Notes under the pieces: generated by a model
Databases searched by the model: none
Seen by the model: the letters and a program-made list of their open reading frames with translations, nothing else
Told to the model about the DNA's origin: nothing
Made by a program: the position numbers and the translations under genes
Assembly: GCF_025833875.1 (NCBI RefSeq)
Contig: NZ_JAOYOD010000001.1
Location: forward strand, 5,119,501-5,183,500
Length of the DNA stretch: 64,000 nucleotides
Direction of reading: 5' to 3'
Origin: Reichenbachiella ulvae
GTDB lineage: Bacteria > Bacteroidota > Bacteroidia > Cytophagales > Cyclobacteriaceae
Part shown: piece after piece, positions 25,195 to 33,292 of the stretch
Numbering within the stretch: the first letter of the stretch is position 1
Layout of the letters: every line of letters begins with the position of its first letter

Positions 25195-25854
25195 TCAGTC
25201 GGTGGCAGGAGAAATCTGGATACCAGACAGTCGATCGAAGATGAATACAATGGGCTGCTGGGCCACACTTTGAAATAGAGGAGTGAGGATGCGGTGGGCA
25301 TTGTCTTCAGTCTGAACGAGGATGCCCATTTTTAAGGCTGAATCTTTGATGTTGCTTTCGGCCTCCTTGTAAAGCCGCTCCATAAATGCTTTTCTGTCTT
25401 CACGATTCATGTAGTCGATCTGCAAGTCGTAGATACGGGAGTTTTTCAGATCTAGTTTGAAGTAGCACAGCTCGGGTTTTGGTAGGCGAATGAAAATGGT
25501 ATCCTCCCTGTATACAATATCTTTTTCCGTTACCAGAGTAAGGTCGATGCAGCCAACCGCTTCTCCCTGGGAGATCAATACGGCCTTTGAATCGGGCACA
25601 GGTTTGTATTTGAAGAGGCCCAGATCGATACTTTCCACCACATTTTTAATCTCAGTGACTTCCTGGAAATTGTAACGGGTCAGTTCAATTTTACCCATTT
25701 GTTCCACTTGACTCAGCAGGGTAGATACACGTGTTTCCTGAACCGCCTCACTGTTATCACTAAAGAATTTTTCTTCCACTACCATCCACGATAGGATAAG
25801 CAAGAGTAGCAACCATGGAAGAATTTGCAGAATCGTTCGGATCAATCGTGTCAT
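25195..25854 (-). CDS. DUF4230-type membrane-anchored protein
   Basis: 219 residues with one N-terminal transmembrane helix (about 8-26) and a periplasmic alpha/beta domain. The segment order (LLSQVEQMGKIELTRYNFQEV, ISQGEAVGCIDLT, DTIFIRLPKPEL) matches DUF4230 proteins. The role of this family is not established. The gene is 57 bases downstream of the symporter gene on the same strand and may be its operon partner. Confidence 0.75.
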   Translation of the reverse strand: MTRLIRTILQILPWLLLLLILSWMVVEEKFFSDNSEAVQETRVSTLLSQVEQMGKIELTRYNFQEVTEIKNVVESIDLGLFKYKPVPDSKAVLISQGEAVGCIDLTLVTEKDIVYREDTIFIRLPKPELCYFKLDLKNSRIYDLQIDYMNREDRKAFMERLYKEAESNIKDSALKMGILVQTEDNAHRILTPLFQSVAQQPIVFIFDRLSGIQISPATD

Positions 25855-25911
25855 GATCGGAAATTACAATATTTATTTGGGAATAGGAGGAAGGGGCAAA
25901 AGCTTTCCAAA

Positions 25912-27225
25912 TCAGTTGTCTATTGATACCTCCTTTTTCGTTCGGTAAAACAAACCCAATAGCGACCCCACTAATACTAGAATGGCCAGCGTAGGCTTTG
26001 CCCCAAAGATAATAAGCCCGATGACCAGGCCAGCCACTCCACCAAGGGCACTTCCGATGAATCGCCCTTTGTTTTTATTGCCCTTGATTACATAGATCAT
26101 GGCAACAGCCATTGTCATTCGGAGGGCTCCTCCGACGATGGTGATATCCACAATACTTCTCCAGAAATAAGTCACCACAAAAGCCAGAAGCACTGTAAGC
26201 ACTGTGGCGATTCTGACACCTTTCACTTTCTGATCAGGAGCTATTGATATGCTGGTATGAGAAGCCACCGCAAAGATGGCACTGTCGGCGGTGCTCATGA
26301 GCCCTGCGAAGAATAAAACAAGTAAAAGAGGGATCCAGCTGGCTTCCATGATATGCTGAGCCGCATAGACAAAGACCATATCTGGGTCCAAAGTGCTGTC
26401 TTGCCGATAGACATACAGACCAAGTAGTAAGAGCAGAAAGGCAATCAATAAAACGGGTACTATGGCCAAACCCATACCACGTTTCAGTGAGCGCTCGTCT
26501 TTGGCAGCATAGCACAGCTGGTAGCGATCCGCCAGTCCAAATACAGAAAGCCCACCATAGAGCATCAGTCCGATGATGCTGCCGATGCTCACTTTTTCGC
26601 TGGTAGTGGTGTTGATCAGTTCGTGCCCTTGTCCCTGAACGATTCCATAGACCAGTAGCCCTAAAAAGAATAGTATGATGATGGCTTGAACTACATCAGT
26701 GAGTACCACGGCTTTGTATCCGGAAGCCAGGACATAGGCGAGGACTACTCCTGAGGTAATCAGCAAGGCTACTTCGTACGAGAATAATTGGAAGTAGGAA
26801 ATGACTTTAGCTCCGCCGGCCAGTGAAAGGAGTATCCAGAAGAACTGAACTGCCGTAGTGATGCCATTGGTTAGCCAGGCGGTTTGGACAGAACCCGTGG
26901 TATGGGCTGGCAGATCCCCTTGCGTATAAAATTTTCCAATGGTCGACATTCGAAGGATTCGAGGAGAGGCCCAGAGGGCAAAGAGGAGGTAGCCGATCAC
27001 TGCTCCTAACAGTAGTCCGAACATGCCCGGTCCAAATTTGTAGGCATAGCCGGTATAGCTAATGAGTGTGCTGACCCCTATGGCTCCAGCGAATTTGGAG
27101 AAAAGAATGGTCCAACTGCCGCGATCACGTCCACCTATTAGATAGTCTTCCTGATTAGAAGAACGGGAAAGGTAGAGGGACAATCCAATGATAAAGACAA
27201 CATAAATGAGTAGGTAGATATACAT
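25912..27225 (-). CDS. sodium:solute symporter family protein
   Basis: 437-residue inner membrane protein with about 12-13 hydrophobic helices. It has the family features near the N-terminus (YLIGGRDRGSWTILFSKFAGAIGVSTLISYTG spans the first helices, with GGR and FAGAIG), LASGYKAVVLTDVVQA and LFFAGLMSTADSAIF, where the TADS motif includes sodium ligands. It is shorter than PutP (about 500). The solute cannot be predicted; no catabolic genes flank it. Confidence 0.88.
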   Translation of the reverse strand: MYIYLLIYVVFIIGLSLYLSRSSNQEDYLIGGRDRGSWTILFSKFAGAIGVSTLISYTGYAYKFGPGMFGLLLGAVIGYLLFALWASPRILRMSTIGKFYTQGDLPAHTTGSVQTAWLTNGITTAVQFFWILLSLAGGAKVISYFQLFSYEVALLITSGVVLAYVLASGYKAVVLTDVVQAIIILFFLGLLVYGIVQGQGHELINTTTSEKVSIGSIIGLMLYGGLSVFGLADRYQLCYAAKDERSLKRGMGLAIVPVLLIAFLLLLLGLYVYRQDSTLDPDMVFVYAAQHIMEASWIPLLLVLFFAGLMSTADSAIFAVASHTSISIAPDQKVKGVRIATVLTVLLAFVVTYFWRSIVDITIVGGALRMTMAVAMIYVIKGNKNKGRFIGSALGGVAGLVIGLIIFGAKPTLAILVLVGSLLGLFYRTKKEVSIDN

Positions 27226-27369: not shown

Positions 27370-27912
27370 TTACTTCATTTTGTCTTTTACCGTATCTGTG
27401 ATGTCCTGCACATCGCTCACATCAAAGACAGGCATCTCTGTGAGCTTGGCATAGTTGGCATAGAGCTCCTTGAAATAGATATCTGTGAAGCGATCTTTGT
27501 CAATGAACTGAGGGCCTACAACGGGGAATTTTTCTAAAATTTTATCATTTGTAAGTTTGAGTAACACCCTAAGGATTTTTAAGAAGTTTACTTCTTCAGG
27601 CTTGATGGAATCATCAGCTTGCACTGTTTTAATGGCTGATTCAAGAAGTAGAAGTTCTTGCTCTTCGTCCATTTCAATTCTTTTTACTCGCTTGAAATAG
27701 TCATCAAAAAAATCGATTCCACGTCTGTTGACGTGATCGATTAACTCGGCTAATTCATCTTCAATGTTTAGGTCTCCAAAAAGTTTGTCACTTGCGTTTT
27801 CCTTGATCAAGGCTACTTCGTCTTGAGAAATATGTGTATCGCATATCATGAATGCGAATACTGTTTGAAGCAAAAGTCTTTGGAATTCGGTGGGGATTGA
27901 TTGATTTGTCAT
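27370..27912 (-). CDS. TerB-like helical protein
   Basis: 180 residues, no signal peptide or membrane helix. Two segments resemble the acidic helical repeats of TerB-fold proteins: FAFMICDTHISQDEVALIK and AIKTVQADDSIKPEEVNFLK, each with a D-x-x-I-x-x-x-E pattern that may bind a divalent metal. It starts 52 bases after the caspase gene on the same strand and shares its terminator, so it is probably the last gene of that operon. It would be the only cytoplasmic member. Family placement is by pattern, so moderate. Confidence 0.6.
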   Translation of the reverse strand: MTNQSIPTEFQRLLLQTVFAFMICDTHISQDEVALIKENASDKLFGDLNIEDELAELIDHVNRRGIDFFDDYFKRVKRIEMDEEQELLLLESAIKTVQADDSIKPEEVNFLKILRVLLKLTNDKILEKFPVVGPQFIDKDRFTDIYFKELYANYAKLTEMPVFDVSDVQDITDTVKDKMK

Positions 27913-27964
27913 GCTCTTATCTTGGTATTTGGTCGAATTAGTTCAATTTAACAAATAATGAATA

Positions 27965-30940
27965 TTATTTGACCTTTGCCAGTGACAATCTGCTGATTGA
28001 ACTTGGCTTTTGAGTAGTCGGATGCTGTCTTCCTCCAGTCAGTTCTTGTACTCGTTCGGATAGATAGTAATCCAATTCGCGAAGGTAGATGATTCCGTCT
28101 TTTTTCACATCGGCTTTTCCTTCTTGAAGCCCTTCTATGAGTGATAGAGTAAAAGCACCATGGCCCCAATCTGGATGCTCAAGAGAGTATTCATAGCCCG
28201 TAGCAGCAGCCATAATCACTACTCCATACTCTTTGCCAGACAATTCACGAACTGCTTCTGTGTTGCTTAGGCTTTTTTGTCCCATGTTGTTGCCTAGTTG
28301 GCCACTATGACAAGTATCTATGAACAAAACTACTCGCGCAGACATGTTGCCTACCAGATCAGAGAAGTCTCTCCAGTCGATGCAGGATATTCTTGGGTTA
28401 CGTGCATCACCATCGTGGGGTACTATGTAGAAGTTGTCTTCTACATTCATGCCATGTGTGGCAATGAATATGATCACGAAATCGTCGACTGTCGTATACT
28501 CTTCCAGGCGCTGGAAGGTTTTTAGGATTTTTGCTCTCGTGGCATTCTCGTTAGTCAGCTTCAAACTAGTGACACCACTGAACATTTTGTCCTTTTGACC
28601 TTTGAAAAGTTCATCAATCGCATCGGCATCATCATCGGCATATCTAAGGTCCAAACTGGAATCGGCAAATTCAGAAACACCGATCGATACCATATAGAGA
28701 TTACTCTTTTTAACTTTAGTTTCGACCGGATCTAAAGTGAGGGTGGTATTGTCCCTGTTGCCCGCATAGCTTGGAACGTAAGTTTCTGCTGGCTCCTCGG
28801 CAGGCTCCTCATAGGTTTCTACTTCCGTTTCTTCTACTTCTGAAGTTTTTTCTCCCTGATCTTCTTCAATACTCTCAAAAGCAATCATTCTCTCCCCAGA
28901 TAGTACTTTGGACTGTTCGTCCACTGCAAACACAGTAAAGGCGTAGCTTTGATTTGTTCCTTCTGGAAGCTCTACATCCAATTCAATTTTTTCCGCATAG
29001 CCATCTCCGGAAATAGACAAATCAGATTCGTGATAGATAGGTCTACCGTCTGCCAAAAGCTTCAATTGGCTTACAGGAGAGTGGGATTGAATAGTGAAAG
29101 AGACAGAAGTTTTATTTCCTTTTACGATCAGGTTAGGTTCTGTAATCCATTTGATGACGGGTGGATCGATTTTCTCGGCTGGTTTGTCCGTAAGGTTCAA
29201 TTGAGAAGCAACTGCATCATATGACTTTAAATCCAAAATAGCCTTGATTACATCCGGCCTATGATAAAAGGTGCTGAAGGCAGATACATCGTGAAATTCT
29301 GCAAGGGAATTTCGCCCCATGTTGATGTGCCAGCCTATGTATTTTTCTCCTCCGGCAGATGCTTCATAAAAACCCTGTGGAGTCCAAATTACCCATTCGT
29401 TGTCTGATGCAACAAAAAGAGTAACCAGATTTTCTCCAGTCTGATTGTTCCATATTTTGATGGTCTGATCGTTGCTTGCGGATAGCAGTAGGTTCTCTGA
29501 TGCGAAATCAGTTAATGCCCAAACTTCTCCTTCATGACCATCAAAAGAACCAAGTAAACTTCCATCAGTTTTAAATTTTTTCAAGGAATAGGTTGAACCT
29601 ATGGCAATAGCCTGACCATCATTGAGGTAAGTGAAGCTTCTAAGATCACCATCTTTTTGTTCATCCAAATTGATCGTTCTACCTCCAGCTAATAGGGAAG
29701 AAGAGGAGGATTTTTCCAAAGTCATGCCCCCTTTTGACAGAGTGGCTGTGTGAAACTCGGTTAAGGATTCAGGCGTTTGATTCAGAAGAAGTTCATCAAG
29801 ATCAAATACCTTTTCTAATTTGACATCATCTAATAAACCTGTTAGGTTACTTTGACTGAAGGCAATTTCATTGCTTGCTTCATTCACACCGATTCCAAAT
29901 ACACTTTTTCCTTTACCTACTAAGTTTCTTTCGAGCGTCCCGGATTTGGTTTCCCAGATTAATATATTCTTATCATCGCCACCTGCAGAAGCTACATAAT
30001 TTCCTTGCTTTCCTTCGAATTGGGCGAATGAAGCACTGGTGATCGCACTGACTGCATTGGTGTGGTAATCAAATTTAGAAATTGGGCTTTGTGTGCTCAG
30101 GCTATAGACCAGACCAACTCGGCCCATGGCAGTCAGGTATTGACCATCGGCAGATCCCTCCAGTACATTGACCGCTCCAGGTAATTCATCAAATGCCCCC
30201 ATGAATTTGCCTTCTTCGGTCCATTTGATGATCTGACCATCCTCACCTGCAGAGTAAAGATTGCCACCGACATAACATACATCTCGAATCGCATCCGAGT
30301 GTACTTTGAATTTGCTGGATGCACTGCCACTTGTGGCCCAGGTTCTAATATATCCATCCACATCGCCTGCAGCAATATTGGCTCCATTTTCGCTGATATC
30401 AATGGCACTGACTATAGATGGAATACCGCTGATGGTTTTGATTTTAGAAGGTGCTCGTGGCGAGGTGATGTCCCAAACGATAATGGATTGGTCAGCAGCT
30501 ACACTGATGAGCTTAGAACCATCTTTGGAGACTACCATGTCCAGAACTACATTAGAATGCCCCTTGAATGGAGTAATTAATTTTTCGTTGATCAAATCCA
30601 ATACTCTGATCTCTCCAATTTTTTCTCCCTCTCCATTTTCGTGATCGAAATAACCACCCAAAAACAAGTAATGCTGGTCCTTAGAAAGAGCAGCAGCATA
30701 GATCCTACCATTCACTCCTCCTTCAGTTTCGAATCGGTAGGTTTTGGCCAGTGTACCACTGGCTACATCCCAAACTCTAACCGTTTTGTCTTCAGATACA
30801 GAAAGTAATTTTTGGCCATTCTCAATAAATTCTAAATCGTGAATCAAACCTGCGTGCCCTTGATTGTCGATGCTTAATTGTTGTGCATTGGCTTGAGTCA
30901 AGAAACACGTAAGTGTAATTACAGTCAGTAAGATTCTCAT
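27965..30940 (-). CDS. exported WD40-repeat caspase-like peptidase (C14)
   Basis: 991 residues. A signal peptide (cut near ANA-Q, about residue 19) exports it. WD40 blades fill about 25-520 (for example GHAGLIHDLEF with KTVRVWD, GHSNVVLDM with SIIVWD, GHEGEVWAL with TIKIWN). A segment WVIWTPQGFYEAS precedes an immunoglobulin-like region (about 590-685), an acidic linker (about 690-745) and the caspase domain (746-985). The dyad is intact: H829 in IATHG and C877 in DTCHSG; a second pocket motif is GYEYSLEH. Bacterial caspase relatives usually cut after Arg or Lys. It lies in an operon with LPP20/DUF4384-type exported proteins. Substrate unknown. Confidence 0.92.
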   Translation of the reverse strand: MRILLTVITLTCFLTQANAQQLSIDNQGHAGLIHDLEFIENGQKLLSVSEDKTVRVWDVASGTLAKTYRFETEGGVNGRIYAAALSKDQHYLFLGGYFDHENGEGEKIGEIRVLDLINEKLITPFKGHSNVVLDMVVSKDGSKLISVAADQSIIVWDITSPRAPSKIKTISGIPSIVSAIDISENGANIAAGDVDGYIRTWATSGSASSKFKVHSDAIRDVCYVGGNLYSAGEDGQIIKWTEEGKFMGAFDELPGAVNVLEGSADGQYLTAMGRVGLVYSLSTQSPISKFDYHTNAVSAITSASFAQFEGKQGNYVASAGGDDKNILIWETKSGTLERNLVGKGKSVFGIGVNEASNEIAFSQSNLTGLLDDVKLEKVFDLDELLLNQTPESLTEFHTATLSKGGMTLEKSSSSSLLAGGRTINLDEQKDGDLRSFTYLNDGQAIAIGSTYSLKKFKTDGSLLGSFDGHEGEVWALTDFASENLLLSASNDQTIKIWNNQTGENLVTLFVASDNEWVIWTPQGFYEASAGGEKYIGWHINMGRNSLAEFHDVSAFSTFYHRPDVIKAILDLKSYDAVASQLNLTDKPAEKIDPPVIKWITEPNLIVKGNKTSVSFTIQSHSPVSQLKLLADGRPIYHESDLSISGDGYAEKIELDVELPEGTNQSYAFTVFAVDEQSKVLSGERMIAFESIEEDQGEKTSEVEETEVETYEEPAEEPAETYVPSYAGNRDNTTLTLDPVETKVKKSNLYMVSIGVSEFADSSLDLRYADDDADAIDELFKGQKDKMFSGVTSLKLTNENATRAKILKTFQRLEEYTTVDDFVIIFIATHGMNVEDNFYIVPHDGDARNPRISCIDWRDFSDLVGNMSARVVLFIDTCHSGQLGNNMGQKSLSNTEAVRELSGKEYGVVIMAAATGYEYSLEHPDWGHGAFTLSLIEGLQEGKADVKKDGIIYLRELDYYLSERVQELTGGRQHPTTQKPSSISRLSLAKVK

Positions 30941-30966
30941 AAGTTCTAGTATTGTAGTTTTTGGAA

Positions 30967-32493
30967 TTACCTACTCATGGTAGTGATGTTGAGCCGAGCT
31001 TCTGCTTTTAACTCTTCAGTTTTTCGAGATACTTTGAAGCCTCTTGTTTTTTGAATGATAGCTTCTGCATCTTCCTGGATAAACTTATATCCATATTGTT
31101 CTTTAGTAGCTAGTGGAGGGAAAGGCTCGCTTTGAGCATTGAGTTGCAAGATTTCGAACCCAAAGGGTTGCGTACATTCGAATATTTCTGGCAGCTGGTA
31201 GGCTTTATTGACATACTCACGACCCAGGTAATAATCATCAAGCAACAAAACTTTACTGCCATCTGCCAGGTGATAGATGAACCTGATGTAGCATTCCTTG
31301 TTCGCCTTGATGAATAGCTTCAATTCTTCTCCTTCTGTGTAGATGAGGTTGTCTTTTCCTTTGTTGGTGAATACTTCTACTTTCAGTCCGCCACCTGTGA
31401 TTTCATTTTTGGCAAACTGCTTCATGCTCACCAGCGCATCTTCATAGTTTTCCGGCTTATAGGCAACTTGTAGATCGTCGAGGGCTTGTGTGGATAGATA
31501 GCATTCAGCACTTGCGACTGCCACAGAGTTTTTTTGCTCTCTTGTAAGCGTACTGATTTTTAGCTTTCCTGGTTCTTCCCAGTAGGTTCCGTTCAGAATC
31601 AAAGCATCTTGATCCTGGCTTCCTTCTGTAGCTACTTTGAATCCTTGCTGAATTAGTTTTTGCTGAAGACTGGAAGTCATTCTTCTGGAGAATGGACTAG
31701 TCATTGGGGTATCTTCAAAAGTGAAGTTGTTGATGCGAATGATTTTGTCTACCTCACCAATGGTGAGTTTCAACGAGTGAGCAATGGCAAACGCTGCATC
31801 ATCAATACTGCTTTGTTCAGTGCTTCTGAGTTCACTTAATTCCTTATCTATGTTGACCTTGTGTCTGTTGAACAAGTCACGTTTTACTGCTGGGTGATTA
31901 TAGTCTCCAGTCAATGTGATGAGCATGGTGATGTTTTGCTCAATGTTTTTTAGTGTGGTTTGCATTTCGTAAAGGCCTTTCAGCGCTTTGTCTTTTTCAC
32001 CACTGTTTAGTTGGTTTTGAATGATGGCAAATTTGGTATTGACCTGATCGAAGTACTGGTTCGTCTCATTGCTGTACTGATTGATCACGTCATCTTTCTT
32101 AGCATAGGCAAATGCATAACCTACCTTTTTTCTTTTGTCATAGAAGGTTTCAAATTTCATCCCAGCAATACTCGCATTACTTACTGAGGTGCTGCTTCGT
32201 TTGAAATCTTCATGAGTATTGGCATTTACATTATGAATGTTAAGTGTGCTGATACTTTGAATATCAACCAAAATACTTTCTACCAATTGGTCCTGACTAT
32301 ATCCCTTCAGTCTATTGAGTAGATCGGCTTCAGGTTCTTCGTTTAAGTTGCGTTCGGACATAAACCCAATGAGGTATTCTGATTGGGGGTAATTGGCATT
32401 TCTGTATACAAAATTAGTCCAGGCAGGTGCTTGTCCTAATGCAACGAATAGTGGCAGTAGTATGAAAGAAATAGTAATAAAATGGGTTTTCAT
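30967..32493 (-). CDS. exported LPP20-like / DUF4384-like protein
   Basis: 508 residues from the ATG used (a TTG three codons earlier is less likely). A signal peptide ends near LGQ-A (about 21). The N-terminal part (PAWTNFV, YLIGF, then RLKGYSQDQLVESI) resembles an LPP20 domain, a helical middle part follows, and the C-terminal part (GGGLKVEVFTNKG, YTEGEELKLFIKANKECYIRF-like, LLLDDYYLG) resembles DUF4384, a beta-sandwich often found next to or fused with caspase domains. The gene ends 26 bases before the caspase gene. Both calls rest on pattern recognition; a scaffold or adaptor role for the caspase is inference. Confidence 0.7.
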   Translation of the reverse strand: MKTHFITISFILLPLFVALGQAPAWTNFVYRNANYPQSEYLIGFMSERNLNEEPEADLLNRLKGYSQDQLVESILVDIQSISTLNIHNVNANTHEDFKRSSTSVSNASIAGMKFETFYDKRKKVGYAFAYAKKDDVINQYSNETNQYFDQVNTKFAIIQNQLNSGEKDKALKGLYEMQTTLKNIEQNITMLITLTGDYNHPAVKRDLFNRHKVNIDKELSELRSTEQSSIDDAAFAIAHSLKLTIGEVDKIIRINNFTFEDTPMTSPFSRRMTSSLQQKLIQQGFKVATEGSQDQDALILNGTYWEEPGKLKISTLTREQKNSVAVASAECYLSTQALDDLQVAYKPENYEDALVSMKQFAKNEITGGGLKVEVFTNKGKDNLIYTEGEELKLFIKANKECYIRFIYHLADGSKVLLLDDYYLGREYVNKAYQLPEIFECTQPFGFEILQLNAQSEPFPPLATKEQYGYKFIQEDAEAIIQKTRGFKVSRKTEELKAEARLNITTMSR

Positions 32494-32511
32494 CTTGAGC
32501 AATTTAAAAAG

Positions 32512-32537
32512 GAGGGGAAAACACCCGTTTTCCCCTC
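32512..32537 (-). terminator. hairpin between the two LPP20-like genes
   Basis: A perfect 11-bp stem (GAGGGGAAAAC with GTTTTCCCCTC, 4-base loop) lies in the 75-base gap. On the minus strand it is followed by CTTTTTAAATT. It has terminator form, but as genes on both sides look like one operon, partial termination or RNA processing is likely. Confidence 0.65.
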
Positions 32538-32568
32538 GATTGATATTAAGGTCTTCGGTTTGATCTTT

Positions 32569-33225
32569 TTAGAAGTTCATCAACTTATCCAGTTTTTCTC
32601 TGGTTACGTTGGTTTTGTCTTCTAGCTCTTGCTGAATCACTTCTTTGGCAGCTTGCTTTGCCAATTCCTGGCTATAAGCCACTCTGATTTGACATTCGTA
32701 GTTTTTGTCTTGCTTTCTGTACAGTTCAGTCAAAGGAATTACTCTTGCCAATTTCTGAGAGATTACTTCAGTAGAAGCAGAAACAGTTTGCTGGATAGTA
32801 GCAGCATCTTCAGCACTTAATTGCTCTGTAGAGATATTTGTCTCTATCAAAGAAGCGATGCTCGAGCTAATTCTACCTGCCAGGTCTTGCTTAGCGATAG
32901 TCGAAGCTTGTAGCTTGGCAGCTGACTGTGTTCCTGCCAGGGCACTACCTGATCCCACAAAGTATGCAGGGAAACCATAGTCGTCTACTTCTGCTTCTTT
33001 CATCCATGCTCTTTCGATTTGTTTGTCTAAAGGCATCGTGCCTGGCTGTGTATACCAGTCATCTTTTTCAATTCTTTTCGCTTCTTTTCTAGCATCTTTG
33101 ATTGCTTTGTCTTTTAGCTCTTTTTTTAGGGCTTTTATGTCTTTTTTGTCCTGCTGTGCTTCTGCGGAAAATACAATAAGGCATGCAAATAGCAGGCTTA
33201 AAAGAGATAGGTTTCTAGTTTTCAT
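32569..33225 (-). CDS. exported LPP20-like protein
   Basis: 218 residues from the ATG giving MKTRNLSLL; the frame is open 12 codons further without support. The signal peptide is cleaved near AEA-Q (about 24) and there is no lipobox cysteine at the cleavage site, so the mature protein is probably soluble in the periplasm. A lysine/aspartate-rich stretch follows, then a domain with FVGSGSALAGTQSAAKLQAS and YECQIRVAYSQELAKQA, as in LPP20-type proteins. It is the first gene of the apparent caspase operon. Confidence 0.7.
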   Translation of the reverse strand: MKTRNLSLLSLLFACLIVFSAEAQQDKKDIKALKKELKDKAIKDARKEAKRIEKDDWYTQPGTMPLDKQIERAWMKEAEVDDYGFPAYFVGSGSALAGTQSAAKLQASTIAKQDLAGRISSSIASLIETNISTEQLSAEDAATIQQTVSASTEVISQKLARVIPLTELYRKQDKNYECQIRVAYSQELAKQAAKEVIQQELEDKTNVTREKLDKLMNF

Positions 33226-33284
33226 GATATTTTGATTTAAAGCATTATTTAATGGTTCCAAGATAGATGCAAAGGCACCATATT

Positions 33285-33292
33285 CAAAAATA
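33285..33292 (-). promoter_or_regulatory. possible -7 element of the caspase operon
   Basis: Minus-strand TATTTTTG is a perfect TAnnTTTG element 60 bases before the first gene. No TTG is found 17-23 bases upstream, so support is partial. Confidence 0.4.

Follow-up and report, generated by a model that had tools for sequence, protein, structure and literature searches.

Gene content of the locus

A 64,000-nucleotide (nt) stretch of the genome of Reichenbachiella ulvae (contig NZ_JAOYOD010000001.1, positions 5,119,501 to 5,183,500; hereafter the window) carries four minus-strand open reading frames (ORFs), which code for an LPP20-like protein, a DUF4384-type protein, a caspase-like protein with WD40 repeats and a TerB-like protein. 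The genome is 5.56 Mb in size and is designated G000, the prefix G denoting sampled genomes and L fetched loci; the best matches of its LPP20-like and DUF4384-type proteins are in Reichenbachiella. All four genes of the original prediction are present, separated by gaps of 78, 26 and 52 nt as calculated from the following coordinates (positions within the window; aa, amino acids).

32569..33225, minus strand, LPP20-like exported protein, 218 aa (ATG start at 33225; the ORF opens with TTG at 33261, not at 33292)
32512..32537, minus strand, terminator-like hairpin then CTTTTT, between the LPP20-like and DUF4384-type genes
30967..32490, minus strand, DUF4384-type exported protein, 507 aa (homology and structure matches)
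31486..31812, minus strand, LpoB-like domain, residues 227-335 of the DUF4384-type protein
30970..31395, minus strand, immunoglobulin (Ig)-like domain with the DUF4384 match, residues 366-507 of the DUF4384-type protein
27965..30940, minus strand, exported WD40-(Ig)-caspase, 991 aa
27965..28705, minus strand, caspase (Peptidase_C14) domain, residues 746-991 (PF00656, 1.2e-15)
28454..28456, minus strand, codon of catalytic H829
28310..28312, minus strand, codon of catalytic C877
28628..28630, minus strand, codon of D771, invariant in 13 aligned domains and aligned with an Asp of MALT1
28316..28318, minus strand, codon of D875, likewise invariant in 13 aligned domains and aligned with an Asp of MALT1
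27370..27912, minus strand, TerB-like protein (PF05099) without signal peptide, a neighbour and not part of the module core

The WD40-caspase and its active site

The 991-aa protein had been read as a WD40-immunoglobulin-caspase, of which Pfam recovers the WD40 repeats (3.9e-32) and the Peptidase_C14 domain (58.3 bits against a cut-off of 21.4); the Pfam matches listed (25 of 43 families) do not include the Ig domain, and a homolog (L056) has Big_7 where that domain was proposed. The predicted His/Cys dyad (H829/C877) is intact by active-site position and alignment, with both residues kept in all 75 aligned caspase domains (69 distinct). The caspase domain, which extends to the C terminus, is also the most conserved part of the protein, 139 of its 246 residues (57%) being invariant over five Reichenbachiella orthologs, compared with 37% of the WD40 part, 19% of the Ig region and 7% of the linker. 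In Campylobacter, FlgP, whose fold is also that of Lpp20 and FlgT, is arranged in concentric rings and touches PflC, a protein of HtrA-like fold with an atrophied triad (as described in the part of PMC12222027 drawn on here), so that a protease fold can evidently be recruited to an LPP20-fold ring and the caspase might likewise be a structural element whose catalysis is dispensable. The retained dyad, in which the window protein differs from PflC, and the strong conservation of the caspase domain make us give this a low probability.

The nearest solved structures by profile are MALT1 (3v4o; 1.3e-9) and metacaspase-4 (6w8s; 3.3e-9), with Asp at matching places; these are eukaryotic proteins, and MALT1 and the metacaspases are cytosolic and lack a propeller. 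D771 and D875 are presumably the acidic S1 pocket residues that give meta-, para- and orthocaspases their preference for a basic P1 residue.

Pfam finds a single further caspase in G000 (L083:7028-10234, contig C1, about 2.247 Mb), which also has WD40 repeats and, by eye, a signal-peptide-like start. It lies about 2.9 Mb from the genome's single LPP20-like and DUF4384-type genes, neither type was found in 14 kb of fetched sequence surrounding it, and in the caspase tree it is the protein with which caspases of six of the seven other sampled Reichenbachiella group.

The two partner proteins

The small protein was labelled LPP20-like; its fold matches that of LPP20, and the family itself (PF02169) is not among the Pfam matches listed for it. 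No lipoprotein box was seen by eye in it or its congeners, and a relative in G010 (L072) has a Cys that could serve as one.

The DUF4384-type protein consists in order of an N-terminal domain that is probably LPP20-like, long helices, a TolB-N/LpoB-like domain and an Ig-like DUF4384 domain. The DUF4384 label holds at the level of the family, all 29 aligned homologs matching at E<=0.1 (best 3.2e-9), and less well for the window protein itself, which scores 19.9 bits with PF14326 against a cut-off of 27. Its N-terminal part matches HP1454 and Tip-alpha with Foldseek probabilities of 0.98-1.00, and among the 29 homologs Pfam finds LPP20 in five (best E 0.0041) and FlgO in three. The flagellar H-ring and basal-disk proteins FlgP, FlgT and FlgO share the LPP20 (SHS2-like) fold, FlgT having an LPP20-like domain followed by a TolB/LpoB-like one. 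The window protein differs from them in its pairing with a caspase and in its Ig-like C-terminal part, that of FlgT being SH3-like; flagellin and FlgI were looked for in G000, with no match. From LpoB, the activator of PBP1B, it differs by its extra domains, its lack of a lipoprotein box by eye and an identity of 9%. As far as their modelled folds indicate, the LPP20-fold and DUF4384-type proteins resemble proteins known from the outer membrane or the periplasmic side.

Three loci elsewhere combine these domains in other ways. In a Saprospiraceae metagenome-assembled genome, a DUF4384-type gene and a WD40-type caspase have immediately upstream of them a papain-family peptidase (L044:4618-6162) that itself carries a DUF4384 domain. 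ORFs at L067:6889-8526 and L068:7192-8850 match the DUF4384-type profile as well as that of the caspase and adjoin another caspase; the L067 ORF has a very long tree branch and an odd active-site context.

Export signals

By a heuristic rule of our own (not SignalP), export signals are found on the caspase, the LPP20-fold protein and the DUF4384-type protein, as had been proposed. A signal-peptide-like start is carried by 36 of 38 LPP20-like, 68 of 73 DUF4384-type, 17 of 17 layout C middle (see below) and 12 of 13 CsgG-type proteins, as against 0/5 TerB-like proteins and 262 of 704 other ORFs. Among the caspases the count is 62/69, and 31/33 where an LPP20-like gene lies no more than 6 kb away. 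Because the ORF calls simply took the longest frame, some starts are wrong; the contig-end-cut L052 is counted as lacking a signal peptide, and ORFs starting at a locus edge are omitted. Duplicates were removed (L015=L046, L016=L050, L087 within L047, L116=L037, L117=L038), the earlier figures being 64/71 for caspases, 70/75 for DUF4384-type proteins and 278/722 for the background. Because 62 of the 69 distinct caspases sampled start in this way, caspase export appears to be common in these bacteria, and the original prediction overstated its oddity.

Export might instead mean secretion past the outer membrane, the caspase then being a degradative or interspecies enzyme; the predicted signal peptide would suit this, and Bacteroidota secrete many proteases. 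We regard it as quite improbable, since the caspase domain reaches the C terminus with no sorting-domain family in the NCBIfam listing for the protein, and since the constant pairing with LPP20- and LpoB-fold proteins suits an envelope-bound role better.

The predicted signal peptide would also place the caspase outside the cytosol, which speaks against an effector of anti-phage defence. Such a role has some support from PADLOC, which matches the caspase (2.1e-5) and, with a HEAT-ARM model, the WD40 part (5.1e-13). Across the four genes and ten neighbours, however, PADLOC shows no partner set, its hits on the ten flanking genes being one marginal and one clear match (mad2, 1.6e-16), the latter to a methyltransferase-like gene that we take to be the housekeeping prmC. 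The NCBIfam model caspase_w_EACC1 reaches 72 bits, under its cut-off of 140. Caspase-like peptidases do act as variable effector domains in bacterial conflict systems, yet those systems, in the portion of the account used here, are NTP-dependent and have vWA, MoxR or STAND-type partners (PMC7159879). Defence is accordingly a very unlikely function.

Conservation of the gene order

Within Reichenbachiella, the order LPP20-DUF4384-caspase (layout A) is found in six of eight sampled genomes, G002 having a TPR gene before the caspase. The DUF4384-caspase spacing is 22-27 nt in four of five measured loci, the fifth overlapping by the ORF caller, and the same upstream genes flank the site in 5/6 loci. 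The hairpin between the LPP20 and DUF4384 genes is present in all six with differing sequences; that of the window has a T run, and that of G002 is weak (z -0.96).

Beyond the genus, profile searches detected at least 34 strong LPP20-like genes in at least 33 of 245 family genomes (the counts of this survey and of the phylum DUF4384 survey being lower bounds). The pairing expected from the window is kept in these relatives, a same-strand caspase lying within 6 kb of 27 of the 34 genes by Pfam, against an expectation of 0.14; these cases span 12 genera. The null assumes uniform placement and independent genomes, and since the genomes are related the binomial tail of 4e-58 is not a true probability. 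In G583 a caspase about 1 kb upstream of the LPP20-like gene (L111, hmmscan 54.7 bits) was missed by the genome search. A chance neighbourhood of unrelated genes would fit the variation of TerB and the downstream genes between layouts; given the LPP20-caspase linkage, and the different caspase lineages that occupy the same place (below), we practically dismiss it.

Two further layouts recur. Layout B (seven loci) has the order WD40 caspase-LPP20-DUF4384 (about 600 aa), with WD40 confirmed by Pfam in three (L093, L095, L104) and an adjoining CsgG-type gene in five. Layout C (12 loci) has an LPP20 gene, a gene of 300 aa and a caspase of about 750 aa with WG repeats, which are recognisable by pattern in 11/12 loci; a Pfam check of L073, L092 and L108 found them in the first two, and L108 has none by either method. 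Two more LPP20 genes are followed by a 300-aa gene and then by a WG-repeat protein of which the contig, ending there, contains just the beginning, and G467 and G478 have unusual gene orders around the LPP20-like gene. G531 has two LPP20-like copies (L101, L102), one with a WG-type caspase and the other in a DUF4384/CsgG layout without a caspase.

The DUF4384-type profile matched in at least 17 of 392 sampled Bacteroidota genomes. At 31 named loci found by this protein alone, a caspase lies within 6 kb in 13 (11 on the same strand). At L037, L038 and L115 a caspase of about 620 aa is oriented divergently to the DUF4384-type gene, and a protein of 864-872 aa is also encoded, the L037 copy of which has no Pfam match.

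This gene content bears on whether the caspase could be a self-destruction switch, activated in the periplasm and killing or lysing the cell. Its family membership would fit, and the part of PMC3501461 drawn on here records, from a Bacteroidetes species, a metacaspase to which amidase and lipase domains are fused. The recurring genes of layouts A-C (LPP20-like, DUF4384-type or 300-aa, caspase, CsgG-type), however, include no lytic enzyme or toxin, and among the minority of neighbours scanned with Pfam the sole lytic enzyme is an SLT transglycosylase at the distant locus L031. The constant upstream neighbours in Reichenbachiella also speak against such a switch, which we consider unlikely.

Different caspase lineages in the same slot

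In the caspase tree (68 rows) the window protein falls into a set of 13 rows that all adjoin an LPP20-like gene (five of layout A, seven of layout B and that of G467), and the layout C caspases form a separate lineage. The LPP20 tree differs, layout B there joining layout C plus five other rows. Constraining the caspases of A, B and C together costs 30.5 log units (p 0.016), whereas joining A and B is not rejected (p 0.196). A grouping of the G002 caspase with those of its congeners is rejected (p 1e-60), yet its LPP20 gene groups with theirs; its TPR-plus-caspase pair resembles a pair in G001 that stands away from LPP20. On these trees the caspase slot holds different lineages, even where the LPP20-type pairing persists. 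The trees are quick ones with groups named and chosen after viewing the loci, and many similar WD40-caspases exist outside the sample. L015, L016, L087, L116, L117, L037 and domains of fewer than 150 residues were left out of the caspase tree; the constraint tests further omitted L067 and L068 and, from each of L109 and L110, one domain, and the LPP20 tree omitted hits weaker than 1e-30.

Neighbouring genes

The TerB-like label is borne out (27.6 bits against a cut-off of 24.4). Membership of the TerB-like gene in the unit does not hold up, as it lies 3' of the caspase in only 4/6 Reichenbachiella loci; a fifth has a longer TerB-like gene two genes further on, on the opposite strand, and no other fetched locus gave a TerB hit. 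Downstream of TerB (window 25195-27225), Pfam identifies a sodium:solute symporter-type gene (SSF) and a DUF4230 gene, and the genes 3' of the module differ in the other Reichenbachiella loci read.

Proposed function

Our data suggest, at somewhat less than even confidence, that three exported proteins encoded at the locus make up an envelope module, in which the caspase would cut an envelope client depending on the state of the assembly. The third of these proteins is a predicted cysteine protease of the caspase type that keeps its dyad and lies behind a repeat propeller, in a conserved pairing. The LPP20-fold and DUF4384-type proteins would form an assembly on the periplasmic side of the envelope, by analogy with FlgP in the Campylobacter motor. 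The propeller, built of WD40 repeats in the window protein, of WG repeats in other genera and of TPR in some others, may select the client or dock on the assembly. On a change in the state of the assembly, the caspase domain, carried on a variable 55-residue linker, would cleave its client, a protein of the periplasm or outer membrane, after Arg or Lys. Processing or turnover of envelope proteins (remodelling, damage response) is the most likely purpose, rather than cell death.

Several observations weigh against this reading. Two of the eight Reichenbachiella genomes (G004, G005) have neither an LPP20-like nor a DUF4384-type gene, and among the 34 LPP20-like genes those of G017, G468 and G531:C65 have no caspase nearby, that of G475 lying at a contig edge. 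A caspase is absent within 6 kb at 18 of the 31 named DUF4384-type loci, with none in roughly 120 kb of flank beyond that distance, and in the phylum sample one lies near the DUF4384-type gene in 2/10. As a DUF4384-type homolog, the 300-aa gene in the middle of layout C is doubtful (weak DUF4384 match in one of four), and the hairpin may uncouple expression of the LPP20 gene from the module. For the N-terminal part of the DUF4384-type protein an LPP20 fold is probable from Foldseek and the five Pfam matches, but profile-profile comparison (hhalign) does not link this part significantly with the LPP20 family. Helicobacter pylori Lpp20 (HP1456) is reported to interact with FlgP, and its deletion to leave flagellation and motility as in the wild type (PMC11756786, in the part considered); the Lpp20 fold alone is therefore no proof of a needed scaffold.

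Much of the architecture is familiar. Peptidase_C14 with WD40 repeats, N-terminal helices that are likely signal peptides and operon neighbours with cell-surface functions were already described for prokaryotic metacaspases and orthocaspases in 2012 (PMC3501461), the neighbours being OmpA, flagellar proteins, surface antigens and transporters; LPP20, DUF4384 and LpoB-type partners are unnamed in the portion of that survey used. DUF4384 is recorded inside orthocaspases of cyanobacteria and alphaproteobacteria (PMC8283722, PMC6426788, PMC7475262, each as partly available), and our literature search found no account of a caspase in an LPP20/LpoB-type partnership. It is conceivable, and more tentative than the function proposed above, that the locus represents an undescribed Bacteroidota envelope machine, an LPP20/LpoB-fold periplasmic scaffold bearing an exchangeable caspase with an exchangeable propeller, for regulated, site-specific extracytoplasmic proteolysis of a housekeeping and not suicidal kind. 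Bacterial caspase homologs are numerous, yet for most the place of action and the partners are obscure, as far as the consulted portions of the surveys go. A conserved, partner-linked exported caspase in cultured marine bacteria offers a testable case, in which the partners are defined and both the site of action and the specificity are predicted, and if it is indeed an envelope processing protease, caspase-type proteolysis in bacteria would not only be a matter of death or defence.

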